From the IMG/VR virus record IMGVR_UViG_3300021440_000054, positions 1 through 42,171 of that record: a DNA stretch of 42,171 nt, one strand, 5' to 3'. The notes under the pieces were generated by a model. It did no database searches and was not told the origin of the DNA. It worked only from the letters and a program-made list of their open reading frames with translations. The position numbers were made by a program, and so were the translations under genes. Positions 15,185-37,903 of the stretch are shown here, one piece after another (position 1 is the stretch's first letter; each line of letters starts with the position of its first letter). Source of the stretch: a virus.

Positions 15185-15439
15185 ATGGCCGAGCAGGATC
15201 AGGAAAATAGAGAATTTGGTCCTACCTACAAATCTCTATTTCTTGGTGCTTGCATTGTTATTGGGTCTACTTTTGGGTGGTGGCTTACGAATTTTATTGC
15301 TGCCACCGAATCTATCCATGCCAAACATGAGCATAGAATCGCCGAGCTGGAAGCAAGGGCACTTAGAGAAACCTGGGAGCGAGAGGCAATCCGCGATCAG
15401 GTTGACGCACTCCTTGAACAAGGGAAACATAAGCCATGA
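15185..15439 (+). CDS. Small membrane protein, lysis-cassette
   Basis: 84 aa: a short charged N-terminus, one hydrophobic segment (SLFLGACIVIGSTFGWWLTN), then a charged helix (HRIAELEARALRETWEREA). This resembles holin or antiholin accessory proteins. It ends in an ATGA overlap with the holin candidate. A competing ORF in another frame (15180-15443) starts 5 nt earlier and also has a hydrophobic stretch; I prefer 15185 because of its amphipathic helix and the ATGA stop/start overlap. Confidence 0.65.
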   Translation: MAEQDQENREFGPTYKSLFLGACIVIGSTFGWWLTNFIAATESIHAKHEHRIAELEARALRETWEREAIRDQVDALLEQGKHKP

Positions 15440-15711
15440 GTGACGAACACAGCACACCCCCGCTGAAGTCGAGACGCAACCTCGATTGGTTCATGGTACT
15501 ACTTACGTGGTACATCGTGTCTGGGTTTATGGCCGTCATGTTGGCATTGTTTCTGAAGGAAGTCCCTGCAGGGAACAAGGAAGTCCTCATCTATATGGCC
15601 GGTCAGCTATCAGGCTTTGCCGGGGCGATGGTGGCAGTGTGGTCTACTACCACGCATGAAAGCAGTAAGAAATCGGATGTCATCGCACAAGCGCAACCAG
15701 TCAAACTCTAG
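15436..15711 (+). CDS. Holin candidate, two transmembrane segments
   Basis: 91 aa. Two membrane segments, WFMVLLTWYIVSGFMAVMLA and VLIYMAGQLSGFAGAMVAVW, separated by a short polar turn (KEVPAGNKE), with a polar C-terminus THESSKKSD. The pattern VP.GNKEVL.Y..GQL.G......W is typical of class II phage holins next to GH24 endolysins. It would form the membrane lesions that release the lysozyme. Confidence 0.75.
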   Translation: MSDEHSTPPLKSRRNLDWFMVLLTWYIVSGFMAVMLALFLKEVPAGNKEVLIYMAGQLSGFAGAMVAVWSTTTHESSKKSDVIAQAQPVKL

Positions 15712-25832: not shown

Positions 25833-27371
25833 ATGGTACACGTCATCATTCTATGTCTCAGCCTTCTACTCGCAAGTCCTGTCCTGGCGACGGTGCCAGA
25901 ATCCCCGGCAGCTGATCGGTATACGGCGAACGGGTCAACAACCTCCTACACCTACACGTTTAAGGTCTATTCCAAAATAGATCTTGCCGTGTATGTGGAT
26001 AACGTGTTGAAGGTTCTCGACGTGGATTACACGGTGTCGGGGGTTGCCAGCGATGGCGGCGGCGTAGTGATCTTCACCTCTCCGCCGGCAAACGGGTTGA
26101 ACGTCACGATCTTACGGCACCAACTGAACCAACAGTACAGCGTCTACACGCAAAACGGCTTCAGCCCTCGGCAGGTCGAGAAAGATCTCGATAAGCTCAC
26201 GATGCAGGTGCAACAGCTCAGCGAGCAACTCACTAGGGCCTTGAAATTCCTTCCTGCATCTACCTCTGTAGCAACCGTAGACACGCCCACGGTCGGAGCG
26301 TTTGCGAGGGCCAAGGTTGGGGGCGGGGTCGATTGGGCAACCCCCAGTAACAGCGTGATCTCCACGCCGGTGTCTATTGCGAACGGGGGAACAGGTGCGA
26401 TTACAGCCCCACTTGCGTTAACTGCACTCGGGGCCTCACCGGATACCGGCTCCACAAAAATCAACGCCAAGGGCGATCTCCTAGCAGGAACGTCGGATAA
26501 CACCTGGGACCGTGTAGCGGTGGGTGCAAACGGATCAGTGCTCACGGCGAACTCTGCACTTTCGACTGGTATGGGGTGGGTGGCTGCCGGTTCGGCCTTG
26601 ATGTCTACCGGCGATGTGAAGATGACGATTAAGACGACGGCTGATTCAGGCTGGGTCTTGATGAATGATGGCACGATTGGAGACGCTAGCAGTGCGGCCT
26701 CGAACCGTGCGAACGACGACACTCAAGCCCTCTTTGAGCTGATCTGGAATAACATCTCCGATACCTGGGCTCCGGTGGTTGGTGGGCGTGGCGGTTCATC
26801 CGCCGCCGACTTTGCAGCGCATAAAAAGATTACGCTTCCCCGTTCGCTCGGGCGCGTCCTGGCTGGCTACGGGGCTGCCGTCTCGCAAGTGACCGGCAGT
26901 AATGCACAGGTTGATACGACCGGGAACCTCTTTACCGTTCCGTCCAACAACTCGACTTGGATTACCGGGATGCCGGTCACGTTCACTCTGACGAGCGGCA
27001 CGATTACCGGCCTGACATCCGGCAATACCTACTATGTGGTGCGGAATAACTCGACCACGATCTATCTGGCTTCGTCCTTGGCGAACGCGCAGAACAGCAC
27101 CGTGATTGACCTCACGGCCAAGTCTAGCCCAGTCTGGTCGATTACCTATACCGGGACCACTCGGGCGCTAGGCGAGTTCGCCGGGGAGAACGATCACGCC
27201 ATGAGCATTACCGAACTCCTAGCCCATACTCACGGCTCAGCAACCACCACCGGCGCAAATGGTCCGGCTGGCGGCTCACTCGGCGGAGGCGTCACAGGAT
27301 CGACCGGAGGGAACGCATGGCAAAATACCCTCCAGCCAACCCTATTCGTCAACACCATGATTAAGCTCTAG
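25833..27371 (+). CDS. Tail fibre with T7-type N-terminus, signal peptide and collar-like C-terminus
   Basis: 512 aa, AAGGAGG ribosome binding site. Residues 1-19 form a signal-like segment (VIILCLSLLLASPVLA). Residues about 24-145 match the podovirus tail-fibre head (DRYTANGSTTSYTYTFKVYS, ILRHQLNQQYSVYTQNG, then KDLDKLTMQVQQLSEQL). Residues about 260-512 resemble a tail-collar/tip region with TLPRSLGRVLAGYG and HTHGS, ending QPTLFVNTMIKL; an insert of about 80 residues lies between. It should attach to the nozzle. A cleaved signal on such a fibre is unexpected. The stop shares CTAG with the converging gene. Confidence 0.85.
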   Translation: MVHVIILCLSLLLASPVLATVPESPAADRYTANGSTTSYTYTFKVYSKIDLAVYVDNVLKVLDVDYTVSGVASDGGGVVIFTSPPANGLNVTILRHQLNQQYSVYTQNGFSPRQVEKDLDKLTMQVQQLSEQLTRALKFLPASTSVATVDTPTVGAFARAKVGGGVDWATPSNSVISTPVSIANGGTGAITAPLALTALGASPDTGSTKINAKGDLLAGTSDNTWDRVAVGANGSVLTANSALSTGMGWVAAGSALMSTGDVKMTIKTTADSGWVLMNDGTIGDASSAASNRANDDTQALFELIWNNISDTWAPVVGGRGGSSAADFAAHKKITLPRSLGRVLAGYGAAVSQVTGSNAQVDTTGNLFTVPSNNSTWITGMPVTFTLTSGTITGLTSGNTYYVVRNNSTTIYLASSLANAQNSTVIDLTAKSSPVWSITYTGTTRALGEFAGENDHAMSITELLAHTHGSATTTGANGPAGGSLGGGVTGSTGGNAWQNTLQPTLFVNTMIKL

Positions 27372-27685
27372 CACGGACGCGGGTTGCCGTTCGGCGTATA
27401 GCAGGGGCCGTAGCGCGGAGGAGTCGGCACGCTCAACTCCTGCCGTTTGTTCGGCTCATACATCGTGCCGGTACCCTCTTTCCCGGTATAGGTGGTGAGC
27501 CCGTTGCGATCCGTGTACGTCTGAACATTGTTGCCGTGCGTATCCCAGTAGTTCGTCAACCCTGGCTCTGTCTTGTAGATCGTGATGGCATCCCCTTGAC
27601 GCAAGCCGGGGGGTGGCGAGTCAGGACCGGCATGAGCTGACGATAGACCAACTGTGAGGAGTACCGCTGCAAGTAGATATTTCAT
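27368..27685 (-). CDS. Reverse-strand exported protein (moron candidate)
   Basis: 105 aa from ATG at 27685, with AGGGAGGT at 27691-27698 on the same strand. It has a clear signal peptide (KYLLAAVLLTVGLSSAHA), a Pro-rich mature start, then YKTEPGLTNYWDTHGNNVQT and YTDRNGLTTYTGKEGTGTMY, Tyr/Thr/Gly-rich strands, and two Cys near the end. It is the only reverse gene inside the rightward late/early layout, so it is probably an independently expressed moron that changes the host envelope. No family recognised. The frame is open further upstream but without a ribosome binding site. Confidence 0.75.
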   Translation of the reverse strand: MKYLLAAVLLTVGLSSAHAGPDSPPPGLRQGDAITIYKTEPGLTNYWDTHGNNVQTYTDRNGLTTYTGKEGTGTMYEPNKRQELSVPTPPRYGPCYTPNGNPRPC

Positions 27686-27746
27686 AGAGCACCTCCCTGT
27701 TGATTCTACGCTCTGCAAGCTATAAGCCTGCCGTATTCTCAATACT

Positions 27747-27777
27747 ATCATAGGCCGTCTTGAGTCATGCCTGCCAA
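27747..27777 (-). promoter_or_regulatory. Possible promoter for the reverse-strand exported protein
   Basis: On the reverse strand TTGGCA (27772-27777) and TATGAT (27747-27752) are separated by 19 nt, longer than the usual 17. The -35 box overlaps the first of the two direct repeats at 27775-27808, which could then act as an operator. Confidence 0.3.
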
Positions 27778-27808
27778 AACCGCCACACTTTTTACAAAAC
27801 CGCCACAC
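27775..27808. repeat. Two 14-bp direct repeats, 20-bp period
   Basis: CAAAACCGCCACAC occurs at 27775-27788 and 27795-27808, two helical turns apart, between the reverse-strand gene and the early genes. Same-face spacing suggests a protein-binding site controlling one or both directions. Confidence 0.75.
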
Positions 27809-27831
27809 CTTTTCGCCTCACTTGCGCCGTC

Positions 27832-27848
27832 CATTGCGCAGCGCAATG
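27832..27848. promoter_or_regulatory. 17-bp perfect palindrome, probable operator
   Basis: CATTGCGCAGCGCAATG is symmetric about 27840. It lies about 85 bp before the first early gene and 24 bp after the direct repeats. The size and symmetry fit a dimeric repressor site. No cognate repressor is identified; the HTH protein at 31937 is one candidate. Confidence 0.6.
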
Positions 27849-27932
27849 CAGAATAGCGCCATAAAATGCACATTTCATTACGGCACGGCCCTTGCTGATA
27901 CGCCAGGCATGCACGCGAAAGGAGGTGAGAAC

Positions 27933-28148
27933 ATGCAAGCGACCTACGACGAACATTTAGAATGGCTGATCCGGCAGGAGCGAGGAGCCAGGGCTGAGCG
28001 GCAGGGGTTTGTGGATGCGAAGAGCTTCCCTGAGTGGACGAAGCCGGTGGCATTTACGAAGGACGAACGGGAGCAACAGCGGTATGACCTGGGTTGGGAA
28101 AATGGGAAGACAATGCTCAAGTGTGAGAAGGCACAGGAGGGGGCGTGA
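27933..28148 (+). CDS. Small early protein
   Basis: 71 aa from ATG 27933, preceded by AAAGGAGGTGA at 27918-27928, near-full complementarity to the 16S tail and the strongest ribosome binding site seen here. The frame is open upstream to 27822, but that stretch lies in the operator region. Charged and helical: HLEWLIRQERGARAERQGFV. No domain recognised. It is the first gene of the early operon, so early takeover or regulation is plausible. Confidence 0.75.
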   Translation: MQATYDEHLEWLIRQERGARAERQGFVDAKSFPEWTKPVAFTKDEREQQRYDLGWENGKTMLKCEKAQEGA

Positions 28149-28288
28149 TGAGCCTACCGGATGACTTACTAGAAGAGCCAGAAGTGTGTAACGAGCACGG
28201 CGTAGAATTCCCATGTCGCTACTGTCGCGTAGACAACGAGGATCTCTATGCAGATGCTTCGATTCAAGACGAAAAGGAGAAACCATGA
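28148..28288 (+). CDS. 46-aa acidic zinc-knuckle microprotein
   Basis: 46 aa, start overlapping the previous stop (TGATG), with GGAGGGGG upstream. Cys14, His17, Cys23 and Cys26 form CNEHGVEFPCRYC, a C-x2-H-x5-C-x2-C arrangement suited to one zinc ion. The rest is acidic (DDLLEEPE, VDNEDLYADA). The stop overlaps the next start (ATGA), so it is part of a coupled chain. Confidence 0.7.
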   Translation: MSLPDDLLEEPEVCNEHGVEFPCRYCRVDNEDLYADASIQDEKEKP

Positions 28289-28530
28289 CACGCCTCACCT
28301 GGTTTGAATGCCTGGTGTTGCTCTCGTTCTGGATTGGTGGTCTCACGGCGTTTCTGGTCGGCGGACTGGTGGCGGTGGGGCAGTTGCTTACGGTGTTTCT
28401 GGCCGTGGTTGTGTGGTGGGTTGTACGCGAACTCTGGCGGGAATATCGCGAGCACCTGAGGACGGAGTACTATCGTGAACAGATCTTTCGGAACTGGCGG
28501 GAGAACTCACGCCGAAAGGGGATAGAGTGA
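28285..28530 (+). CDS. Small membrane protein, two transmembrane segments
   Basis: 81 aa from ATG 28285 (GAAAAGGAG upstream). Two hydrophobic segments, CLVLLSFWIGGLTAFLVGGL and VGQLLTVFLAVVVWWVVREL, followed by a strongly charged cytoplasmic-type tail (WREYREHLRTEYYREQIF). An early inner-membrane protein; superinfection exclusion or host membrane modulation is possible but unsupported. Confidence 0.7.
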   Translation: MTRLTWFECLVLLSFWIGGLTAFLVGGLVAVGQLLTVFLAVVVWWVVRELWREYREHLRTEYYREQIFRNWRENSRRKGIE

Positions 28531-28561
28531 TAAGTATTTCTAACAACACATGGAGGACGCA

Positions 28562-28851
28562 ATGAAGAAGGGTGATTACATTATTTGCCGGACCTATTCG
28601 GCTGGCGTGTTTGTGGCACATTGGTGTCGCGTACAGGTAAAGAGGTTGAACTGAAAAATGCGCGGCGGCTGTGGTATTGGGACGGGGCGGCCTCACTCTC
28701 GCAGCTCTCACAAGAAGGGGTGAAGGCTCCGCAGAACTGCAAATTTCCCTGCGATGTGCCAACGGTACTACTCACAGAGGCGATCGAATTGTTGCCAGTT
28801 AGTAAAAAAGCGAAGAAATCTATTATGGGGGTTCCAGTATGGGCTCGGTAG
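28562..28851 (+). pseudogene. DUF6948-like protein, single-base frameshift
   Basis: ATG 28562 has a GGAGG ribosome binding site and reads MKKGDYIICRTYSAGVFVAH before a stop 30 codons in. The family continuation GTLVSRTGKEVELKNARRLW ... WDGAASLSQLSQEGVK ... CKFPCDVPTVLLTEAIELLP is found in the -1 frame and runs to 28851. Joining at the GTGGCAC around 28611-28617 (one G more, GTGGGCAC, would restore the frame) gives a full protein of about 96 aa. No canonical slippery heptamer is seen, so a base deletion or a sequencing error in a G-run is more likely than programmed frameshifting. Function of the family unknown. Confidence 0.7.
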
Positions 28852-28976
28852 GCGCTGGCGCTGGCGCTGGCGCTGGCTATGGCGCTGGCTATGGCTATGG
28901 CGCTGGCGCTGGCGCTAGCTATGGCACTGGCGATGGCGCTGGCGCTGGCGATTGCGCTGGCGCTGGCGCTGGATAA
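28839..28976 (+). CDS. Silk-like Gly-Ala repeat microprotein
   Basis: 45 aa, starting MGSVGAGAGAGAGYGAGYGY and continuing with GAGAG, GTGDG and GDCAG units: alternate residues are Gly and the others mostly Ala with some Tyr, Asp, Ser and one Cys. The pattern matches fibroin-type (GA)n sequence. At DNA level it is an imperfect GGCGCT hexamer array. A G-run (28826-28831) precedes ATG 28839, and the start overlaps the end of the upstream gene in another frame. It could form beta-sheet aggregates; real translation is not proven. Confidence 0.5.
   Translation: MGSVGAGAGAGAGYGAGYGYGAGAGASYGTGDGAGAGDCAGAGAG
28857..28972 (+). repeat. GGCGCT hexanucleotide array
   Basis: About 19 units of GGC-NNN in phase, most of them GGCGCT, with TAT, GAT, ACT, AGC and TGC variants. 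The region is nearly free of other sequence. Such an array can expand or contract by slippage and may also be misassembled by short reads. Confidence 0.85.
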
Positions 28977-28996
28977 TATATCGTTGGGGGTGTCAT

Positions 28997-29200
28997 GTGA
29001 GATACGCACGATTCTTTAGAAATTACCAGGACGACACAATGAACGGCTTGTCGAACCACGATAGCGGGTATCTGGTGAATCGAAAGCCGGTGGTGTTTTC
29101 GTTCTTGGTCAACCGGCCCAAGAAGCACGCCGGCACGAAGGCGGCAGCAAATCGGATGGGGCATCGGTTCGTGAAGAAGTTAAAAGAAATGGGGCTCTAA
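28997..29200 (+). CDS. Small basic early protein
   Basis: 67 aa from GTG 28997, with GGGGG at 28986-28990 as ribosome binding site; ATG 29039 (53 aa) is an alternative start. The sequence MRYARFFRNYQDDTMNGLSN, then RKPVVFSFLVNRPKKHAGTK and a basic helix RFVKKLKEMGL, is rich in Arg/Lys and suggests nucleic acid binding. No named family. Confidence 0.6.
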   Translation: MRYARFFRNYQDDTMNGLSNHDSGYLVNRKPVVFSFLVNRPKKHAGTKAAANRMGHRFVKKLKEMGL

Positions 29201-29219
29201 CAATCAAGGAGGATGGAAA

Positions 29220-29840
29220 ATGGATAGCAAATCACTCGCAGTACTCGAATCGGCGAACGCGCTGACAATCAAGGTCGCGCCAGACCGGCAGAAAGCGGCG
29301 GATCTCTGGGACGCAATCAGAGCCTTTCGCAAACAGGAAGAGGCGAACAAAGAGACGGTGTGCCGTCCACTCAAAACCGCCTGGGATGAGGCCAAAGTCC
29401 CGTTTGATGAGTTTATTAAGAAGTGCCAGGACGCCGAAAAGAAAATGCAGGCGGCCATGAGCACATGGGACCGTGAACAGGACCGGCTGGCTCAGATCGA
29501 GCAAGTCAAGATCCAAGCGAAGATAGACGCTGATAACGCGAAGAAGCTCGCCAAGGCAGAAGAGAAAGGGAAGGACCTGTCAGAGGTAGCATTGAAGGTC
29601 GCGCCGGTGGTGCAGGCTCCGGCCAAAAGTATTGAGACACAAGCTGGAACGACACAAACGCGCTCCACAAAGAAGGTCTACAAACCGAAAGACCTGAAGA
29701 GTCTCATGACGGCGTTCCCTGACCTGTTTGAATTATCCATGCCAAAGTTCAACGCATTGGCGAAGACCGGCATGCTAGACGGTCGGGCCGATGTCGAGAT
29801 CAGTGAAGAGTATATCTATCAACAGAGAGGACCAGCATGA
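29220..29840 (+). CDS. Coiled-coil early protein next to recombination genes
   Basis: 206 aa, AAGGAGG ribosome binding site. Residues about 20-120 are helical (KAADLWDAIRAFRKQEEANK, AQIEQVKIQAKIDADNAKKL), followed by a linker and a C-terminal globular part (DLKSLMTAFPDLFELSMPKF...YIYQQRG). Proteins of this layout are commonly found just before exonuclease/annealing genes in phages, usually unnamed. It may bind DNA or a partner nuclease, but I see no catalytic motif. Confidence 0.7.
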   Translation: MDSKSLAVLESANALTIKVAPDRQKAADLWDAIRAFRKQEEANKETVCRPLKTAWDEAKVPFDEFIKKCQDAEKKMQAAMSTWDREQDRLAQIEQVKIQAKIDADNAKKLAKAEEKGKDLSEVALKVAPVVQAPAKSIETQAGTTQTRSTKKVYKPKDLKSLMTAFPDLFELSMPKFNALAKTGMLDGRADVEISEEYIYQQRGPA

Positions 29841-30064
29841 ACATTCCAGCCAACAAATTGAGGATTGGTGAAGTCTTGCGCCTGCGGGCCTCAGTCCGTA
29901 TTTCGTGCGTGGTGACGACGCCGTTAAAGATGGACACCTATGCCGACTTGCGCCGACAGTTACAGGGCAATGATGCGACATTCCTGCTAGATGTGACATC
30001 GCAGATGTCACCGGATGAGCCATTAGGAGTCAAGAAATACATTAACAATGAAGGCGAGGTGTAG
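29837..30064 (+). CDS. Chimeric early microprotein
   Basis: 75 aa, ATGA overlap with the upstream gene. Residues 4-29 (PANKLRIGEVLRLRASVRIS and the next six residues) match residues 40-65 of the structural protein at 6948-7526, and the DNA under them matches at about 83%. The rest (DTYADLRRQLQGNDATFLLD ... GVKKYINNEGEV) is unrelated and could start on its own at ATG 29930. The simplest reading is a small early gene that gained a new N-terminus from a virion gene. It lies directly before the exonuclease gene. Confidence 0.65.
   Translation: MNIPANKLRIGEVLRLRASVRISCVVTTPLKMDTYADLRRQLQGNDATFLLDVTSQMSPDEPLGVKKYINNEGEV
29846..29922 (+). repeat. Segment duplicated from structural gene (copy B)
   Basis: Match to 7065-7141, gapless, 27 identical bases at the right end. 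The right boundary of similarity is sharp (29922/29923), 7 nt before the internal ATG at 29930. Confidence 0.9.
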
Positions 30065-30065
30065 C

Positions 30066-30629
30066 ATGCTCAGCGTTGACCGAGAGAAACCGCGTCACTA
30101 CGGCGACGAGCATGGCCGCTACTGGTCTGTCTCGCAAGTCTGTGATGTGGTGTCTGGCGGGTGCAATTACTACGCGCCAGGGGCGTCGGAACGTGGGCAA
30201 GATTTGCATGATATCTTTGCCCTCGCAGTGGGGAATTATGCTGGTCTCTGCATGCTGCCCGACGTGCTAGAGCAGTATACAGGTTACTACAACGCGATGA
30301 TCGAGTTCATATCCTGGGCTAAGCCGGTTCCGTCATCGATTGAAAAGATGATGAAGCATAAAACGTACCCCTATGCTGGCCGGCCAGACTTTATTGGATC
30401 AATAGCCGATGAGTTCGGGGTGCTGGACCTGAAGACAGGGAATCCCCAGAGGTGGCACATGGTCCAGATCCACGGCTACCAAAAGATGCTGGATAAGGCG
30501 GCGAAGATGTGGATTCTGTATATCAACGATGAGGGGAAATTCCAGTTTAAAGCGGTGAAGCCGAGCGTGCGAGATTGGGCAGTATTTCAGAACGGATTAT
30601 CAATTCTACAGTGGAGGGAGGGCGCATGA
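30066..30629 (+). CDS. PD-(D/E)XK exonuclease, RecB/Cas4-like
   Basis: 187 aa from ATG 30066 (GGCGAGGTG upstream). The core motif is YAGRPDFIG...GVLDLKTG with Asp108, Asp121 and Lys123; a QIHGYQ motif follows (Gln134, Tyr138: the Q-x3-Y of RecB-type nucleases), and His48 lies in RGQDLHDI. This is the phage 5'-3' exonuclease type that makes 3' ssDNA for annealing. The next gene is an ERF annealing protein with overlapping stop/start, so the two form a recombination pair. The phage may use it for end repair or recombination-dependent replication. Confidence 0.85.
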   Translation: MLSVDREKPRHYGDEHGRYWSVSQVCDVVSGGCNYYAPGASERGQDLHDIFALAVGNYAGLCMLPDVLEQYTGYYNAMIEFISWAKPVPSSIEKMMKHKTYPYAGRPDFIGSIADEFGVLDLKTGNPQRWHMVQIHGYQKMLDKAAKMWILYINDEGKFQFKAVKPSVRDWAVFQNGLSILQWREGA

Positions 30630-31351
30630 AGATCTATAACGCAGTGTCGAAGGTTGCAGGTGTGCTCGCAAAGGAAGGTGTAAGCAAGGATCGCAGCAAC
30701 CAACAGCAAGGCTACAAGTTTCGAGGTATTGACGATTGTTTGAACGCGCTCGCGCCGGTGCTGGCAGAGCATGGGGTGATTATCTATCCTGAAGTCCTAG
30801 AACGAGAGCAGGTTGAACGGGCGGCCAAGCATGGCGGGGCTCTTTTCTACACTACAGTCAAGGTCAAGTACACCTTTGCTGCCGATGATGGTTCGAGCTT
30901 CCAGGTCGTAACCTACGGGGAGGCGATGGACAGCGCCGACAAGGCCACGAACAAGGCCATGAGCGCAGCGTATAAATACGCCGTGATTCAAACCTTCTGC
31001 ATCCCGACAGAGGGCGATAACGACGCGGACGCACACACACATGAGGTGGTCGCGCAATCTACGAAGGCGTCCACAGCAAGAGCCGCGAATGCGAAGAAGG
31101 TGCAAACACTGCAACCCCCCAAGCAATCCACGCCTACAACTGCGAGTATTGGTGACGTGCAATGGAATGAATTCCTGGACTATGCCGGTGATGACCCAGA
31201 CCGGATGGACGTGATTGCGCAACTCAAGGAGGTGCTCGCCATTGGCATGGTGGCAGACCTGACCGGCGAGGCGCGGAAGAGTTTCATTCTAGAATTCCAG
31301 AAATCCTGCAAGGACACGGGCGTACCGTGTGAGGAGTGGGTGAAACCATGA
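30626..31351 (+). CDS. ERF family single-strand annealing protein
   Basis: 241 aa from ATG 30626, GGAGGGAGG ribosome binding site. The ERF core is QQQGYKFRGIDDCLNALAPV ... VTYGEAMDSADKATNKAMSA and AAYKYAVIQTFCIPTEGDND, matching the P22 Erf family. The C-terminal third is a linker plus a helical tail (NEFLDYAGDDPDRMDVIAQL). It anneals complementary single strands made by the nuclease upstream; in P22-like phages it circularises genomes with terminal redundancy, which fits the repeat at the ends here. Confidence 0.92.
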   Translation: MKIYNAVSKVAGVLAKEGVSKDRSNQQQGYKFRGIDDCLNALAPVLAEHGVIIYPEVLEREQVERAAKHGGALFYTTVKVKYTFAADDGSSFQVVTYGEAMDSADKATNKAMSAAYKYAVIQTFCIPTEGDNDADAHTHEVVAQSTKASTARAANAKKVQTLQPPKQSTPTTASIGDVQWNEFLDYAGDDPDRMDVIAQLKEVLAIGMVADLTGEARKSFILEFQKSCKDTGVPCEEWVKP

Positions 31352-31656
31352 CTTGCCGCAAGTGCAAAAGCCTCACGTTTGAGCGATGGGACCACGAACT
31401 GAGAGAGTGGGAGGACTATTGCCCGTGTTGCGCGTGGCGTCCATCTAACACGACGCCGAAGCCTGCACCGATTGAGAACAACCGGGGCCGGTATGAGCGG
31501 GAGCCCAGCGTCCATACATGCAAGTGTGGCCGTGCCAAGGTGCCATGGCGATCAAGTTGTCGGGATTGCCTGGATCGGTTTATCGAGTTTGATCGCAAAT
31601 ACACGAAACGCGAAAAAACCAGAGCCGTCAAGGCGACGAGAAAGGCGTTTCAATGA
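31348..31656 (+). CDS. Double zinc-ribbon early protein
   Basis: 102 aa from ATG 31348 (GGAG upstream, ATGA overlap with ERF). Two Cys sets: CRKC with CPCC in the first 30 residues, and CKCGRAKVPWRSSCRDC near residue 60. The C-terminus is basic (KYTKREKTRAVKATRKAF). Probably a nucleic-acid-binding protein linked to the recombination module. No named family. Confidence 0.72.
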   Translation: MTCRKCKSLTFERWDHELREWEDYCPCCAWRPSNTTPKPAPIENNRGRYEREPSVHTCKCGRAKVPWRSSCRDCLDRFIEFDRKYTKREKTRAVKATRKAFQ

Positions 31657-31940
31657 AAAGGCCTAACCGATGGGAACGGGCAGCTTACAAATTGAGGCTG
31701 GACCATATTGCGTCTCCATTTGCTCGCCAAATACCAGAGGGGTGCTGGCCTACTATTGAGCATCGCATTGCCACGTTTCTCCGACGTGAGCATAGAGCGG
31801 TGGTGCGGATGATAAAGGCAGAGATGAAGCGACATAGAGAAGAGGTCGCGTCTACGGTGGGGCAAGCACATCATATGAGCCTCGCACGGTGGGGGGAGGC
31901 TTACCTTATTCTCTCTAAAATACAGGAGCGCGTGAAATGA
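31653..31940 (+). CDS. Basic helical early protein
   Basis: 95 aa with overlaps of 4 nt on both sides. Arg/His-rich helices (WERAAYKLRLDHIASPFARQ, REHRAVVRMIKAEMKRHREE). No domain recognised; a DNA- or RNA-binding role is suggested only by charge. Confidence 0.65.
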   Translation: MKRPNRWERAAYKLRLDHIASPFARQIPEGCWPTIEHRIATFLRREHRAVVRMIKAEMKRHREEVASTVGQAHHMSLARWGEAYLILSKIQERVK

Positions 31941-32173
31941 TTACGAACGAACGGCTGGAATTCACACGGCAGCAACTCACGGTCATGCAGCTCTCGTGGA
32001 ATGGTATGAGCGTGAAAGATACCGCGGCGTATATGGGCCTGAGCGAGAAAACTGTCAAAAACTACCGACATCATATCTATGAAAAGCTCGGCGTCTCGAA
32101 CGTGGAAGGGATGTTGCGCGCAGGGGTTGAGCGGGGGATCTTGACGACCAGCTCAGGGGTGGATTGGCCATGA
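31937..32173 (+). CDS. LuxR/GerE-type helix-turn-helix regulator
   Basis: 78 aa consisting of little more than a GerE domain: LTVMQLSWNGMSVKDTAAYM, then GLSEKTVKNYRHHIYEKLGV (recognition helix) and a closing helix with AGVERGIL. No receiver or ligand domain is present. It is a stand-alone DNA-binding protein and a candidate for controlling early-to-late switching, perhaps through the dyads at 27832 or 38690. It overlaps genes on both sides. Confidence 0.85.
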   Translation: MITNERLEFTRQQLTVMQLSWNGMSVKDTAAYMGLSEKTVKNYRHHIYEKLGVSNVEGMLRAGVERGILTTSSGVDWP

Positions 32174-32508
32174 GCCCAACTCAGCGCACCTTAGCTGAAC
32201 TTCGCAAACAGGGGTATACGGCCTATGTGGTGGAGAAATGGAATTCGCACGCCGAGATCCGGCAAGACCTATTCGGCTTTATCGACATCCTCGCCATGAA
32301 GCCGTGCGAGCCGTTGCTGGCGGTGCAGACGACGAGCACCGGGAACATCGCGTCACGGATCAACAAGATTCACGACACGGCACTCAGTCAGGACTGGATT
32401 AGCACAGGGGCTAGGCTAGAGGTGTGGGGATGGGCAAAACGTGGCGCGCGAGGCAAGCGGAAAGTCTGGACGCTCACCGTTAAGGTGATAGCGATGGGAA
32501 GGCCTTGA
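32170..32508 (+). CDS. Nuclease-fold protein, VRR-NUC/resolvase-like
   Basis: 112 aa from ATG 32170, overlapping the regulator stop. The pattern RTLAELRKQGYTAYVVEKWN...RQDLFGFIDILAM...PLLAVQTTS resembles small PD-(D/E)XK-fold phage proteins: Asp before ILAM as motif II, with QTTS where E-x-K is usual. The missing Lys at the expected place makes activity uncertain. It could be a structure-specific nuclease in replication or recombination. Confidence 0.65.
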   Translation: MSPTQRTLAELRKQGYTAYVVEKWNSHAEIRQDLFGFIDILAMKPCEPLLAVQTTSTGNIASRINKIHDTALSQDWISTGARLEVWGWAKRGARGKRKVWTLTVKVIAMGRP

Positions 32509-32882
32509 CGAATAACAGGTTGATAGGGTAAGGTTATGACAGACAAGACGTGCGGCGGCGCGTTCGAGTCAAAGACGTTTCACGGGGGCAACCCCAGTCT
32601 AAGGCCCGAAGAATGCTACCGCCGTAGTATTCAACGGGCCTTTTTCTTGTCTGCGGTGGTTAACCGACTCCCTCTCCGCACCCACAAAGAAAAGAACGCC
32701 CTTAGAGCGGGTCCAGGAGCTTTCACAGTAGCGCTATTGGCTACTGGCTTTCTCTCCTCCGCGACCGACGAACAAGCGTTTGTAGGCGCGACCGTCTCTC
32801 AGCCGAATCCCTCCCCTAAGGAGGTTCGGAGGGAAAAAGAAAGCGAAGCTATGTCTACAATTCAAATCACCCGGAGGATCTT
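32509..32882 (+). other. Structured intergenic region, probably non-coding
   Basis: 374 bases between the nuclease-like gene and the next membrane protein. It contains a GGGG-GCAA-CCCC hairpin (32584-32595), a strong terminator (32601-32650), a CAGTAGC/GCTACTG hairpin (32726-32746) and CCTCC/GGAGG (32810-32824), which could mask a Shine-Dalgarno-like GGAGG. A 116-aa frame is open across it (32536-32886), but it runs through the terminator and has no recognisable domain, so I do not call it a gene. Confidence 0.6.
32601..32650 (+). terminator. Rho-independent terminator in the early region
   Basis: Outer stem AAGGCCCG (32601-32608) with CGGGCCTT (32635-32642), inner stem GAATGCTAC (32611-32619) with GTAGTATTC (32624-32632), CGCC loop, then a run of T (32641-32645) and TTG. 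A long, near-perfect terminator that should separate the recombination genes from the following envelope genes. Confidence 0.85.
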
Positions 32883-33269
32883 ATGAACTGGAAAACGATG
32901 GCATTGACTGGAGTAGTGGTCGTGCTCGCGGGATGGCTGGCGGCATGGCAGGTCTGGGAGGCAGTTGCGCCGAAGCCAGTGGTTGAGAAAGTGGCGTTGG
33001 ATCAGGCTGGGATACAAGGTCAGATTAACTATGTGCAGAGTCAAATGGATGGCCTGAAGAAAGAAGTGGCGGATCTCAAGAAAATGGTGCTGCTTTACAA
33101 GCGGGCCGTGTTAGAGGCGAAAGGGCGAGTCCTCAACGCCGACCAAGATGTTCACAAGTTTGTCGAATCGGCATTGAAGGAAGAGCCAGTGCGAGAGATT
33201 CTATCTACCCCTGACCTGATCGAACGGGCTAGGAAGATCGGACTGACCACAATGAAGGTGCAGAAATGA
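32883..33269 (+). CDS. Membrane-anchored coiled-coil protein
   Basis: 128 aa, CGGAGGATC ribosome binding site. One N-terminal membrane segment (LTGVVVVLAGWLAAWQVWEA), then a coiled coil (INYVQSQMDGLKKEVADLKK) and a charged C-terminus. Topology resembles i-spanins, but the location in the early region and the Rz found at 16138 argue against lysis. Possibly an envelope or replication-anchor protein. Confidence 0.7.
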   Translation: MNWKTMALTGVVVVLAGWLAAWQVWEAVAPKPVVEKVALDQAGIQGQINYVQSQMDGLKKEVADLKKMVLLYKRAVLEAKGRVLNADQDVHKFVESALKEEPVREILSTPDLIERARKIGLTTMKVQK

Positions 33270-34066
33270 GCCAATTTCTCATTACGGAATCATTTGTGAG
33301 AAAACTTTTAGAGACTGTTGATGCGGGACTGATGGTAAGCGATGGCGTTCCTAAGCCTGGTAAGTTATGTGTAGAAGCGGCGATCTACTACGCGCTTAGC
33401 GAACCACATAGCAAAGGATCAGGCTGTGTAGATCCGATCGTTCGCCGAGGGCTAGGCAGGCTGAATGATGCACTATGGTCCAGCAAACAGGCACGAGCCA
33501 AGGGACTGCGAAAAGTTGCAATCGCACAACTGGGGTCGAAGGATACGATTAACATAACTAATTTTTTGGCATTGTTTGCCGAATACACTATCCGGGAAGT
33601 GGTGCCAGTGGCGCTACGTGCTGCCGGTGCGCTGAACTCTCATCACACCAAGGAGCTAGAGGCGCACGCTGAGCAATGTGAACGTGAAGGTAGTCGCGAT
33701 GTCGCTGATGCCGCAGCCCGAGCCGCCTACGACGCCCGCATCGCTGCTTATAGTACCCATGCCACCCATGCCAGCGGCGATGCTGCCTATGTCGCTTTTT
33801 CAGCAGCACGCGCTGCCACCTATGCTGCCTGTGCTGCCACCTATATCTATCATGAGGGTTATGCCAATCGTGTCATCACTGATTCCGTTTCTGCTGCCTA
33901 CGCCGCAGCCGATGCAGCTGCCGCTGCCGTCTCCCGTGTCACAAGCCCTGAGGCAGATCATGTTTTCTCGCTCTGTGCCAATTTGATGGTGCGGGCCTTA
34001 CAGAAATGTGGCTCTCCTGGGTGCGAGTGGCTGTGGTTGGTGGATCAGACGGAGGTGACGGCATGA
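33266..34066 (+). CDS. Alanine-rich helical protein
   Basis: 266 aa. The N-terminal 130 residues look globular (CVEAAIYYALSEPHSKGSGC, NFLALFAEYTIREVVPVALR). Residues about 145-225 are an Ala/Tyr/Asp-rich repeat region (DVADAAARAAYDARIAAYST, AAYAAADAAAAAVSR) compatible with a long helix or solenoid. Similar Ala-rich proteins are common in phages with no known function. Starts and ends in 4-nt overlaps, so it is co-translated with its neighbours. Confidence 0.65.
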   Translation: MSQFLITESFVRKLLETVDAGLMVSDGVPKPGKLCVEAAIYYALSEPHSKGSGCVDPIVRRGLGRLNDALWSSKQARAKGLRKVAIAQLGSKDTINITNFLALFAEYTIREVVPVALRAAGALNSHHTKELEAHAEQCEREGSRDVADAAARAAYDARIAAYSTHATHASGDAAYVAFSAARAATYAACAATYIYHEGYANRVITDSVSAAYAAADAAAAAVSRVTSPEADHVFSLCANLMVRALQKCGSPGCEWLWLVDQTEVTA

Positions 34067-34440
34067 TCGTCCTGCTTGCTCTTGTGCTCACACTGCCAAC
34101 CGTGGCTCAGGCCGCCACTGTCTGCTTGGACGAGCATGAGTTATCAGCGCATGTTCTTCAGGTCGAACAGGACCGCGCTGAGCTGAAGAATTTGCGGGTC
34201 GCCGTGCCGTTGTACAAAACAGCCAGCGAGACACGGAAGGAGGAAATCCGAGTGACGGGGGAATATGTACTGGCGCTGGAACGATATAAAGATCTGAGCG
34301 ATGAGCTGTTGGCTGCACAAGAACAGCGCGAGGCGCAGCATGCGAAAGAACTGGCTGAGATGAAGTGGTGGAGAAATATGGGATGGGGTACGGCAGCGGC
34401 GGTGACGGTAGGGGCGATTATCTTGGGGGTGCTGAAATGA
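34063..34440 (+). CDS. Exported coiled-coil protein with C-terminal membrane anchor
   Basis: 125 aa from ATG 34063, with GGAGGTGA at 34051-34058. Signal peptide MIVLLALVLTLPTVAQA, then a coiled coil (VEQDRAELKNLRVAVPLYKT ... DELLAAQEQREAQHAKELAE) and a C-terminal membrane segment (GTAAAVTVGAIILGVLK). The predicted topology places the helix in the periplasm with a C-terminal anchor in the inner membrane. It pairs with the membrane protein at 32883 and may act at the envelope early in infection. Confidence 0.72.
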   Translation: MIVLLALVLTLPTVAQAATVCLDEHELSAHVLQVEQDRAELKNLRVAVPLYKTASETRKEEIRVTGEYVLALERYKDLSDELLAAQEQREAQHAKELAEMKWWRNMGWGTAAAVTVGAIILGVLK

Positions 34441-34504
34441 CCATAAAATCAATCACCCTGTGTCTTGAAGCTTTGTTTCTATTGAGATAAAAGGAGGTGT
34501 CTAC

Positions 34505-34687
34505 ATGAGCCATTATTGCCAAGATCATCCAGCATACGCAGCGAAGCGTGAGCCGTCCGGCCTCTGTGGCCGGTGCTGGCAGCTCTATTTCTACAAAAAC
34601 CCAGAGGCGGACCCGGTCCTTCGGCGAGACTATCAAGATTGGCAAGCGGATAGCCGGGAAGCGGAATCAGGCGAAAAGAAATGTTGA
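34505..34687 (+). CDS. Zinc-finger microprotein
   Basis: 60 aa with AAAAGGAGGTG at 34491-34501. Cys5, His8, Cys21 and Cys24 (CQDH ... CGRC) suggest one zinc site, followed by WQLYFYKNPEADP and an acidic/basic tail. Unknown function. It directly precedes the structured RNA at 34699. Confidence 0.7.
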   Translation: MSHYCQDHPAYAAKREPSGLCGRCWQLYFYKNPEADPVLRRDYQDWQADSREAESGEKKC

Positions 34688-34698
34688 GTTCTGCTTAG

Positions 34699-34832
34699 CG
34701 TCATGCTATGACGAATCAACAGATTAGCGCCGCCCAGGGGAAAGCTGGGAGGTCATAACCGCAGAGCCCCCACCGTAAGGTGGGCGCTACAGCTGAAGAA
34801 CCCTCAATTAAGGAGCTTTCCCCTCCTTTTTT
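34699..34832 (+). ncRNA. Candidate attenuator or riboswitch-like RNA
   Basis: Hairpins: CGTCAT/ATGACG (34699-34713), CCCAG/CTGGG (34733-34749), GGT-CATA-ACC (34751-34760) and CCCACC-GTAA-GGTGGG (about 34769-34784). AGGGGAAAGCT (34736-34746) is perfectly complementary over 11 nt to AGCTTTCCCCT (34814-34824). The latter overlaps a short terminator hairpin, AAGGAG (34810-34815) with CTCCTT (34823-34828) plus TTTT. The two structures exclude each other, the arrangement of a transcription attenuator or expression platform. It precedes the 51-aa gene and the replication gene. No known riboswitch class is recognised. Confidence 0.5.
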
Positions 34833-34858
34833 GGGGGTTTCTTCATTGTGGAGATATT

Positions 34859-35014
34859 ATGCGTGTGGATAAGTTCAAAAAGATTCTACGTGGTATCCCT
34901 GGAGATTTCGACGTACAAGTTTTTGATAATAATGAGGGAGAATGGATCTCTCAATTTGGTGGGGCTGGATGGATACAGTTTGTGAAACAGGTTGAAGCTG
35001 AAGATGAGGAATGA
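34859..35014 (+). CDS. 51-aa acidic microprotein
   Basis: 51 aa with GTGGAG 6 nt upstream. Begins MRVDKFKKILRGIPGDFDVQ, ends VEAEDEE; strands with a central GEWISQFGGAGWIQF and a strongly acidic tail. It is the first gene after the candidate attenuator and precedes the replication-like gene by 16 nt, so these two are probably controlled together. Confidence 0.6.
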   Translation: MRVDKFKKILRGIPGDFDVQVFDNNEGEWISQFGGAGWIQFVKQVEAEDEE

Positions 35015-35030
35015 TTAAGGAGTCAACCTG

Positions 35031-35699
35031 ATGCCAAACAGACTCATACATGAGAAGGCACTGCGTAGCCACACATTGGCTCGCCTCTCCGCTGAGGCCG
35101 AGCGATTATTCTGGAGGCTCACGGCAATAGCCGACGACCAAGGCCGCTTCGATGCCTATCCGTCTACGGTCAAGGCTGACTGCTTCCCAACCATGGTTGA
35201 TTCTATCAAAACGAAGGATGTTGTAGCTTGGTTGGTTGAATTGAGCCAGGAGTGTTGCAAATTCTACATAGTAGATGGGAGGCAGTACGGGAATTTTGTG
35301 AAGTGGGCGGAATATCAAAGGATTTATGGGAATAAACCGAAGTTCCCGCAGCCCCCCGCAGATTGCGGGGAACTGCCGCAATCCCCCGCTCTTATTCCTA
35401 TCTCTATTCCTATTACTATTCCTACTTCTATCTCTATGGCTCCACCGGTTGGTGGAAAGAGCAATGGTAAAGGTAAAACGATATTCCCTGAAGGGTGGAA
35501 ACCGGAGCAGGCCGAAATGGATCAGTGGAAGGCGCACGGTATTACAGATCCATGGGTAGAGTTTGCGACGTTTCGAGATCATGCCCGTACCAACGATCGA
35601 CGGTGTAAGGATTGGTCGGCGGCCTGGCGGAATTGGTGTCGGAAAACCTTACGAATCAAAGAGGAGCGAGCCAATGGACTGTATCAAGTGCGGAGATGA
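35031..35699 (+). CDS. Replication initiator-like protein
   Basis: 222 aa. The N-terminal winged-helix region matches phage replication proteins: HEKALRSHTLARLSAEAERL ... IADDQGRFDAYPSTVKADCF ... NFVKWAEYQRIYG. A low-complexity linker (residues about 100-145) contains Ile/Pro/Ser repeats. The C-terminal part ends DWSAAWRNWCRK, a common end of DnaT/O-like phage initiators that load host helicase. The lack of phage polymerase or helicase fits use of the host replisome. GC-rich hairpins and a pyrimidine-rich repeat in the linker may form an internal origin. Confidence 0.75.
   Translation: MPNRLIHEKALRSHTLARLSAEAERLFWRLTAIADDQGRFDAYPSTVKADCFPTMVDSIKTKDVVAWLVELSQECCKFYIVDGRQYGNFVKWAEYQRIYGNKPKFPQPPADCGELPQSPALIPISIPITIPTSISMAPPVGGKSNGKGKTIFPEGWKPEQAEMDQWKAHGITDPWVEFATFRDHARTNDRRCKDWSAAWRNWCRKTLRIKEERANGLYQVRR
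35354..35438. other. Possible replication origin inside the initiator gene
   Basis: CCCCGCA/TGCGGGG (35354-35370) and GATTGCGG/CCGCAATC (35361-35383) are two competing hairpins, followed by a pyrimidine-rich stretch of TATTCCTATC-type repeats (35391-35438). In lambda the origin lies within gene O in a comparable place between the two domains. That this is the origin is inferred from the analogy only. Confidence 0.35.
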
Positions 35700-35883
35700 T
35701 CCGTGTACCTGTCAACGTGTCCTCCAGCCGGTATCGAGTCGGCCAGGGACTCCACAGAAATATGACATGCAGCAATGTACTAGCCCGGGTTGTACGGTCA
35801 TGATCGGGTTTATCGCTGGATCAGTGCACGGCGTAACGAGTTGCAAATGGTGCCAAGCGGGGGAGGCCTACTATGCCCGATAA
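35674..35883 (+). CDS. Cys-rich zinc protein
   Basis: 69 aa from ATG 35674, with GAGGAG at 35661-35666; the gene overlaps the end of the replication gene by 26 nt. Cys pairs CIKC, CTC, CTSPGC and CKWC suggest two zinc sites. Starts MDCIKCGDDPCTC. Likely a small zinc-binding partner of replication or transcription; no named family. Confidence 0.68.
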   Translation: MDCIKCGDDPCTCQRVLQPVSSRPGTPQKYDMQQCTSPGCTVMIGFIAGSVHGVTSCKWCQAGEAYYAR

Positions 35884-36121
35884 TACCCTCACACAAGCGG
35901 AGTTTGGAGCCGAGTTGTATGACGCGATCTGTACCTGCGCGAAAGTGCAACAGCTCCTCCATATGATTTCAGTTGAGGTGCATAAAGGCCGGGATACTGC
36001 GGATCTATCGGCACAGCATAGGCGAGAAAAGGCGAAGGCGAAGAGGTTTCTCGAAGCCGATGCGATTAGCACTGAAGATGCCTGTCGGCTAGTTCATCGG
36101 TTTCCGTGGCTGATGACATGA
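35873..36121 (+). CDS. Small helical protein
   Basis: 82 aa, start overlapping the previous gene by 11 nt. Mainly helical (EFGAELYDAICTCAKVQQLL, HRREKAKAKRFLEADAISTE), ending VHRFPWLMT. No domain recognised. It is the last clear gene of this operon. Confidence 0.6.
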   Translation: MPDNTLTQAEFGAELYDAICTCAKVQQLLHMISVEVHKGRDTADLSAQHRREKAKAKRFLEADAISTEDACRLVHRFPWLMT

Positions 36122-36284: not shown

Positions 36285-36341
36285 ATGAGAATACCTATTT
36301 GCACACTAAGTGTGTCAATAGGTATTGACGCATATTGTTAG
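36285..36341 (+). CDS. 18-codon leader-like peptide
   Basis: Encodes MRIPICTLSVSIGIDAYC from ATG 36285 with AAGGAGG at 36272-36278, a strong ribosome binding site. Most of the ORF lies inside a 37-nt hairpin (36290-36326), so translation would disrupt the stem. This is the layout of a leader peptide or toxin-type microprotein; no downstream attenuated gene other than the 33-aa membrane peptide is apparent. Confidence 0.4.
   Translation: MRIPICTLSVSIGIDAYC
36290..36326 (+). repeat. Long inverted repeat
   Basis: AATACCTATT (36290-36299) and AATAGGTATT (36317-36326) form a perfect 10-bp stem, continued by CACAC/GTGTG (36302-36314) with a TAA loop. No T-tract follows, so a simple terminator is unlikely. 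Confidence 0.85.
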
Positions 36342-37036: not shown

Positions 37037-37903
37037 TTACTCAGGCTTGCGTCCTAAGATCCAATCCGCTGCCTTTTGGGCCTGTGCCGCCGCATGGACC
37101 ACAATCTTACTGTCCTGCTTTAGCTTCCTTCTCCATCCGTCAATGTATGACGCCGAATTCTTCAGTGCTGCCTCGTTAGCAATACCCGCTTCACCACAGA
37201 GAAATGCAGCACCCATTTCCGCAACAAGCTCTTCCTTGCTGTAGTTGGTGCTTCCGAAGTGAACCATATCGGTCAGGGTTGCTCGATTCAGGCGTGACGC
37301 ATGCCCTGTGGAATGAGTCAACTCATGGAATAGTGTGGAATAGAATTCCGCTTGGCTGGAGAATTGGTATCGCTCAGGTATCACGACAAGATCATGTGCT
37401 GGTCGGTAATAGGCTCTATCTCCGCTCTTGTAGTGGATATTCGGAGGGGATGGATAGTGAGACGCGATGAACTCGGCTTGCTCATGTGAGCCAATGGCGT
37501 TTTTCTTTTCTTCGGGGATAGGTTGCAAGTGTTTATCCAAGCCCTCACACTGCGCGACATTGAAGACTGTGTAATACCGTAATAAGAAGCTCTTTTCTTC
37601 ACTCTCAGATCCATCATCTTGCGCCTTGGTGTAGGTGCCTGTTTTCCAAAAAATAATCGGCGTTCCCTTTTCACCCTTTCTGACTTGTCCGCCCAGTTCT
37701 TGAGCTTGATTGTATGTGCAAAAGTAGGGTCGTTCATAGGGAGAGTGTGCTAAGAGAAATCGATTCAATCCACGATAGGCTTTCTTGCTCACAAGGTTTG
37801 CCGGCTCTTCGCCGAGCTCAGATTTCCATGGTTTATGCCAAGGGATTGTGCCTGATTCTAATTCTTTCAAGATCCGCTCTGTGATGATTTCATAGACATT
37901 CAT
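37037..37903 (-). CDS. ardC: ArdC-like antirestriction protein
   Basis: 288 aa, leftward. The N-terminal ssDNA-binding-type domain (residues about 1-130) has the ArdC pattern VYEIITERILKELESGTIPW ... GLNRFLLAHS ... YFCTYNQAQELGGQVRKGEK. The C-terminal metalloprotease-like domain carries HELTH (193-197), STGHASRLNR and a downstream EELVAEMGAAF that supplies the third ligand. It protects incoming DNA against host restriction in plasmids and phages. The ribosome binding site AGGAG is 3 nt from ATG, short but usable. Early expression is expected. Confidence 0.92.
   Translation of the reverse strand: MNVYEIITERILKELESGTIPWHKPWKSELGEEPANLVSKKAYRGLNRFLLAHSPYERPYFCTYNQAQELGGQVRKGEKGTPIIFWKTGTYTKAQDDGSESEEKSFLLRYYTVFNVAQCEGLDKHLQPIPEEKKNAIGSHEQAEFIASHYPSPPNIHYKSGDRAYYRPAHDLVVIPERYQFSSQAEFYSTLFHELTHSTGHASRLNRATLTDMVHFGSTNYSKEELVAEMGAAFLCGEAGIANEAALKNSASYIDGWRRKLKQDSKIVVHAAAQAQKAADWILGRKPE

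Follow-up and report, generated by a model that had tools for sequence, protein, structure and literature searches.

The RNA element upstream of the replication genes

What kind of RNA was encoded in the 171-nt intergenic gap that precedes a 51-aa ORF and the replication initiation gene of this phage, and what could it do? The window, namely the whole 42,171-nt stretch of virus record IMGVR_UViG_3300021440_000054, had been described from its letters, and it was proposed that AGGGGAAAGCT (34736-34746) and AGCTTTCCCCT (34814-34824) formed a long-range helix competing with a terminator, as in riboswitches and attenuators. We found that these segments were indeed perfectly complementary, with 67 nt between them. 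The domain that they closed contained the announced GTAA-tetraloop hairpin, with its core at 34769-34784, and the 3' strand overlapped an apical stem AAGGAG/CTCCTT (34810-34815/34823-34828) and its T run (34827-34832). The position before the 51-aa ORF and the replication initiator (phrog_1408, 5e-18) was also as described. No known class had been recognised in this region and, in agreement with this, an Rfam search of the whole window gave no family at the gathering threshold; at relaxed thresholds, chance-level matches only were obtained for both copies of the element (see below).

The helix itself was not significant genome-wide, since the window had one perfect 11-nt inverted pair with arms 20-110 nt apart and whole-window shuffles had 0.93 on average. 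The chance of such a pair inside the 171-nt gap was 0.002. The real significance of the pairing rested on comparative evidence.

The predicted folding energy of the gap was -74.8 kcal/mol in comparison to -51.7 kcal/mol in shuffles (z -4.85). The minimum-energy fold lacked the 11-bp helix and consisted of SL1 (CCCAG-GGGAAAG-CUGGG), SL2 and a long terminator hairpin, SL3, the apical loop of which (CUUUCCC) was complementary to the SL1 loop GGGAAAG along all 7 nt. The 11 bp comprised these seven loop pairs and two closing positions on either side. The whole RNA was approximately 125 nt long, with SL1, SL2 (the GNRA hairpin) and SL3 in this order, and SL3 had T-rich runs at 34827-34832 and 34838-34847. 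The putative sigma-70-like promoter matched 8 of the 12 consensus letters and stood at the distance from SL1 that was common to seven of the nine elements described below; a general promoter scan had missed it because the cut-off was 9/12 and a final T was required. Transcription was expected to begin near 34719. An additional stem from the initial gap fold, GTTCTGC/GCAGAGC, was discarded because its 5' strand was located upstream of this predicted start.

A script that searched for complementarity between a hairpin loop and the loop of a terminator further downstream revealed a second element in the same window, at 32505-32645 (Table 1). The approximately 200 nt on its 3' side (within 32646-32880) were conserved in two other phages, L138 and L010, and contained a hairpin, xGUGG-UGGUUAACCGAYUCCCUCU-CCACx, followed by CTTTCTCTCCTCCGCGACC and GGAGGGAAAAAGAAAGCGAAGC. 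It may represent a structured RNA of greater length, or else a small ORF, 116 aa long in the window, that belongs to no known family. The 116-aa ORF over copy 2 was considered as an Ash/Icd-type phage protein and rejected, and a link to P1/P4 immunity was abandoned, because it had no Pfam, PHROGs or tblastn match. Upstream of copy 2, a 78-aa LuxR/GerE-type helix-turn-helix protein (31937-32173) was encoded that could be an early regulator.

Table 1. Positions in the window of the two copies of the element and of the genes after copy 1, with the SL1/SL3 loop pairs of all nine elements.
Feature	Position	Strand	Details
Sigma-70-like promoter, copy 1	34684-34712	+	TTGAGT 34684-34689, 17-nt spacer, TATGAC 34707-34712
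SL1, copy 1	34729-34753	+	loop GGGAAAG 34738-34744, perfectly complementary to SL3 loop
SL2, copy 1	34765-34788	+	AGC-c-CCCACC-GTAA-GGTGGG-c-GCT, GNRA tetraloop 34775-34778
SL3 terminator hairpin, copy 1	34795-34844	+	loop CTTTCCC 34816-34822
51-aa ORF	34859-35014	+	directly 3' of copy 1, no known family
Replication initiation protein	35031-35699	+	phrog_1408, E 5e-18
Sigma-70-like promoter, copy 2	32505-32534	+	TTGACG, 18-nt spacer, TAAGGT
SL1, copy 2	32547-32564	+	kissing loop CGGCGG 32553-32558
SL2, copy 2	32584-32595	+	GGGG-GCAA-CCCC
SL3 terminator hairpin, copy 2	32603-32645	+	loop CCGCCG 32619-32624, TTTTT tail 32641-32645
Loop pair, copy 1			GGGAAAG/CUUUCCC
Loop pair, copy 2			CGGCGG/CCGCCG
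Loop pair, L003			GUAGCAG/CUGCUAC
Loop pair, L010			UUCACGG/CCGUGAA
Loop pair, L138			UACUGG/CCAGUA
Loop pair, L096			GGCUAAG/CUUAGCC
Loop pair, L145			GGAUAAG/CUUAUCC
Loop pair, L143			GGUCUAG/CUAGACC, within 8-nt loops
Loop pair, L153			AUUCGGG/CCCGAAU

Relatives of the element in other phages

The structure scan, which covered the phage loci collected in this analysis, together with the searches described here led to nine distinct elements in seven phages: two in the window and seven in six other phages. All carriers were uncultured virus contigs. The first relative (L003) was reached via a relative of the 60-aa protein encoded upstream of copy 1. At the equivalent place, its SL1 was UGCUCU-GUAGCAG-AGAGCA, and a GUAA hairpin came next, followed by a terminator with the loop CUGCUAC; thus, the loop letters differed from copy 1 and the complementarity was kept. 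The loop-complementarity script, applied to 80 phage loci carrying an Erf recombinase relative and to terminase relatives, added L010 and L096 as well as copy 2 of the window. A sequence pattern made from the region downstream of copy 2 led to L138; it also matched a bacterial contig (L140), which was a chance match. Moreover, two distinct phages (L145 and L143/L144) were reached through a gene that follows the element in L096 and L010, without any use of the loops, and both carried the element. A wider scan revealed a second copy in the L143/L144 phage (L153).

Copy 2, L010 and L138 formed a second subgroup that shared sequence well past SL3, and L153 shared a part of it. Two phages each held one element of either subgroup, with different loops. 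In cultured phages, DNA similarity searches with the element yielded no meaningful match and no close relative. A degenerate pattern built from the first two examples had no matches, and a pattern for the SL2 core found only already-known contigs and four chance matches. We saw no such element in P4, BPP-1, MW202898 or the stretch 26000-36000 of the HK022 record, which may not contain both put sites.

Loop-loop complementarity and covariation

In all nine elements, the loops of SL1 and SL3 formed a perfect Watson-Crick pair of 6-7 nt, and every pair was different in sequence. When the loop partners were permuted, nine-fold perfection was reached in none of 20,000 trials, with a mean cross-pairing of 0.40 of positions. 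The two loops were 66-79 nt apart, and the isolated loop duplexes had predicted energies of -6.4 to -10.7 kcal/mol. SL3 was present in all nine minimum-energy folds and SL1 had the same stem in nearly all of them; its loop was partly closed in the folds of copy 2, L010 and L138 because some loop ends could pair. SL1 and SL3 can stay folded together with fully complementary loops. Complementarity was conserved despite sequence change throughout, as expected of kissing loops.

The closest comparison was between L096 and L145, aligned by sequence alone. The kissing helix contained a double change from C-G to A-U, and further double changes were found in SL1 (A-U to U-A and A-U to G-C) and in SL2 (C-G to A-U).

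Since the initial scans had required complementarity, the search of all loci was repeated without that requirement, using the promoter, SL1, SL3 and the T-rich tail. The pairs fell into two groups: in seven elements the loops were 100% complementary, and in all other, unrelated pairs the figure was 0-50%. Block-shuffled controls gave 2-4 pairs at the settings of the first scan, none with an intervening GNRA hairpin, and 9-11 pairs at the wider settings, none with a good promoter. We consider it very probable that the conserved kissing-loop RNA is real. The covariation that the original prediction had named as its own check was thus present for the long-range pairing, and its suggestion of a new phage RNA regulator held as far as a conserved structured RNA with a terminator was concerned. 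The fold was well supported; the regulatory role is inferred.

Promoter, terminator and RNA nature

A sigma-70-like promoter with at least 8/12 matches and a -35 box that preceded SL1 by 42-49 nt was found in seven of the nine elements (background 4.2%, p 7e-9); L003 and L143 were without a good match at the usual position. SL2 was capped by a GNRA loop in six of the nine (background 6%, p 3e-6). SL3 was a stable hairpin with a U-rich tract upstream of a gene, as expected of an intrinsic terminator or attenuator. Most copies had a canonical U tract; that of L138 was poor, and in copy 1 the stem took up part of it. The stems were longer on the promoter strand than on its complement because several pairs were G-U; in L096 and L145, for example, they had 7 and 18-19 pairs on the former and 4-5 and 6-7 on the latter. 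This asymmetry points to an RNA transcribed in the direction of the promoter.

Genomic context

In copy 1, L003, L096, L145 and L143, a few to about 25 nt separated SL3 from the Shine-Dalgarno sequence and start codon behind it, so transcripts of these genes must cross SL3, by read-through or from further upstream. A replication initiator was encoded downstream of copy 1 (with one small ORF between) and of L010, and the genes downstream of L096, L145 and L143 were judged from position and sequence to be probable replication initiators as well. On the other hand, the L138 copy was located behind terminase, portal-like and scaffold-like genes, and the element was therefore not tied to replication. 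We found no phage protein that was common to all carriers and absent from the control phages, which leaves a host factor or action by the RNA alone.

Several other features of these genomes were recorded. Relatives of a 92-aa protein (15436-15711) were encoded by three other carriers of the element, the contigs L003, L010 and L096, and were absent from all seven control phages. The initiator genes had short tandem DNA repeats in mid-gene: CTATTCC-like at 35383-35440 in the window, coding for TETETE at about 4170-4240 in L096, and ACGAATACG-like at about 4385-4455 in L002. By analogy with lambda O, these repeats are possibly an origin inside the gene. The window also contained a long inverted repeat, AATACCTATTTGCACAC-TAA-GTGTGTCAATAGGTATT, at 36285-36331 in a gap without large ORFs, an Ala-rich 266-aa protein (33266-34066) that matched no family and in which Ala-Ala-Tyr-like repeats were numerous, and, encoded on the opposite (-) strand at 37037-37903, an anti-restriction protein of the ArdC type that had a zincin-like domain.

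Proposed mechanism and alternatives

We propose that the element is a promoter-proximal cis leader RNA acting as an attenuator, a role for which the case is evenly balanced. The sigma-70-type promoter would initiate approximately 10-15 nt ahead of SL1, and SL1 and SL2 would fold before SL3. On emerging, the SL3 loop would kiss the SL1 loop through 6-7 perfect base pairs, and SL1, the kissing helix and SL3 would form one compact unit near the polymerase. At SL3 the polymerase would then either stop, with a short structured RNA as the product, or read through into the adjacent gene: replication genes for one class of copies and other operons for the second. Making or breaking of the kissing complex may set the level of read-through, perhaps depending on a host or phage factor. 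The analysis established the sequence and its predicted fold, the covarying loops, the signals for promoter and terminator and the surrounding genes; the site at which transcription begins, its termination in vivo, the step that is regulated and a possible factor are presumed here. The more specific proposal, which we hold tentatively and with rather less confidence, is that the terminator loop itself is the conserved cis kissing partner, that its pairing decides between terminated RNA and read-through, and that the loops differ within a phage to avoid cross-reaction. Against an attenuator role we counted the poor U tract of L138, the lack of a good promoter match at the usual position in L003 and L143 and the absence of a protein common to all carriers. 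Moreover, the loop-loop contact leaves the terminator stem intact, so termination, which kissing might either help or hinder, need not change.

The linear model of the original prediction, in which the 11-bp helix excludes the terminator as an antiterminator does, now appears very unlikely. The 11-bp complementarity was perfect in copy 1 and L153, and in copy 1 a nested folding model, which is unable to represent kissing, favoured the helix when the transcript ended at 34824-34832 and the terminator fold once it reached 34836; the helix may thus form transiently in this copy. However, complementarity ended exactly at the loop borders (6-7 nt) in five of the nine elements and extended to 8, 9, 11 and 11 nt in the others, and the full-length helix cost 11 kcal/mol relative to the terminator fold. 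What the elements have in common is therefore a kissing contact that leaves SL1 and SL3 folded. The modelled folds, where SL1 and SL3 can both form, fit a contact made with the terminator and not instead of it. The element could also be an independent sRNA gene at operon borders, with the kissing fold as its mature structure, action in trans and the downstream genes as mere neighbours. Most copies had their own promoter and terminator and the genomic position was variable, as the place of L138 among structural genes illustrates, yet start codons hugged SL3 in five copies, leaving no room outside the element for a promoter of the next gene; in addition, the cis contact would occupy the loops, and a conserved single-stranded seed was not apparent. 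We regard this explanation as improbable but not far-fetched.

It is still more doubtful that the folded leader modifies the polymerase to pass SL3 and later terminators, as in the cis antitermination of HK022 put. The location directly behind early-type promoters, the lack of a phage protein common to all carriers and the two copies in each of two phages, comparable to putL and putR of HK022 (PMC9378689), would suit such a role, but put is an RNA of approximately 70 nt with two stem-loops and without a terminator, and here one key hairpin is the terminator. Loops that differed among all copies and phages while their partners matched are what recognition codes would look like, and RNAs might thus act in trans between related phages, one phage's RNA kissing the other's leader in the way that RNA I of ColE1 kisses RNA II, to give loop-coded immunity or incompatibility. 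However, the cis contact should win over the trans one because both partners are on the same RNA, and neither a match to the Rfam C4 model nor such an architecture in P4 was found, which makes this highly improbable. Least credible was a replication signal at the DNA level, with the hairpins acting in single-stranded DNA. Most copies stood just upstream of a replication gene, but the stems needed G-U pairs and were long on one strand only, the promoter spacing was fixed, L138 lay among structural genes and two phages held two copies each.

Comparison with known systems

The put RNA of phage HK022 suppresses pausing and termination without a dedicated protein. Its two sites, putL and putR, encode RNAs of approximately 70 nt with two stem-loops, and no terminator is included (PMC9378689). 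Like put, the element was a short structured cis RNA behind early phage promoters, could be present in two copies per phage and was linked to termination (PMC9378689). Unlike put, it had three stem-loops in approximately 125 nt including the terminator, not two in approximately 70 nt, and no sequence relation was seen; kissing between SL1 and a terminator is not described for put (PMC9378689).

The leaders read by ANTAR proteins (EutV and relatives) have dual hairpins that exclude the terminator; their loops are hexanucleotides in which the first letter is A and the fourth is G (PMC3369931). The element resembled them in having two short-loop hairpins associated with a terminator and a possible control of read-through (PMC3369931). 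In contrast to the ANTAR pattern of hexanucleotide loops with A1 and G4, its loops were mostly 7 nt long, had no common sequence and paired with each other.

In ColE1 RNA I and RNA II, fully complementary loops of short hairpins serve as a recognition code, and early transcription is controlled by the C4/CI antisense RNAs of P1, P7 and P4, segments of which match sites of the same leader. The C4/CI RNAs are processed and act in trans, whereas the element would pair in cis; searches with cut-offs of E 10 for copy 1 and E 5 for copy 2 gave no match to the Rfam C4 model, and the P4 genome had no such arrangement. ColE1-type kissing loops have also been linked to plasmid orthogonality (PMC9458437). 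The ColE1 partners are sense and antisense RNAs in trans, and in the element both loops are on one RNA and one of them belongs to a terminator.

Kissing loops and terminators are each well known separately. To our knowledge, no cis-acting RNA has been reported whose leader hairpin is conserved for kissing the loop of the terminator itself, and a phage RNA that kisses a terminator loop was not described in the open-access papers searched. The element looks like an undescribed class of phage RNA switch. If this is true, it would be a new class of structured RNA in phage early gene control and would offer a compact test of the effect of a tertiary contact on termination, and its nine natural variants make loop-swapping tests of the model directly possible.
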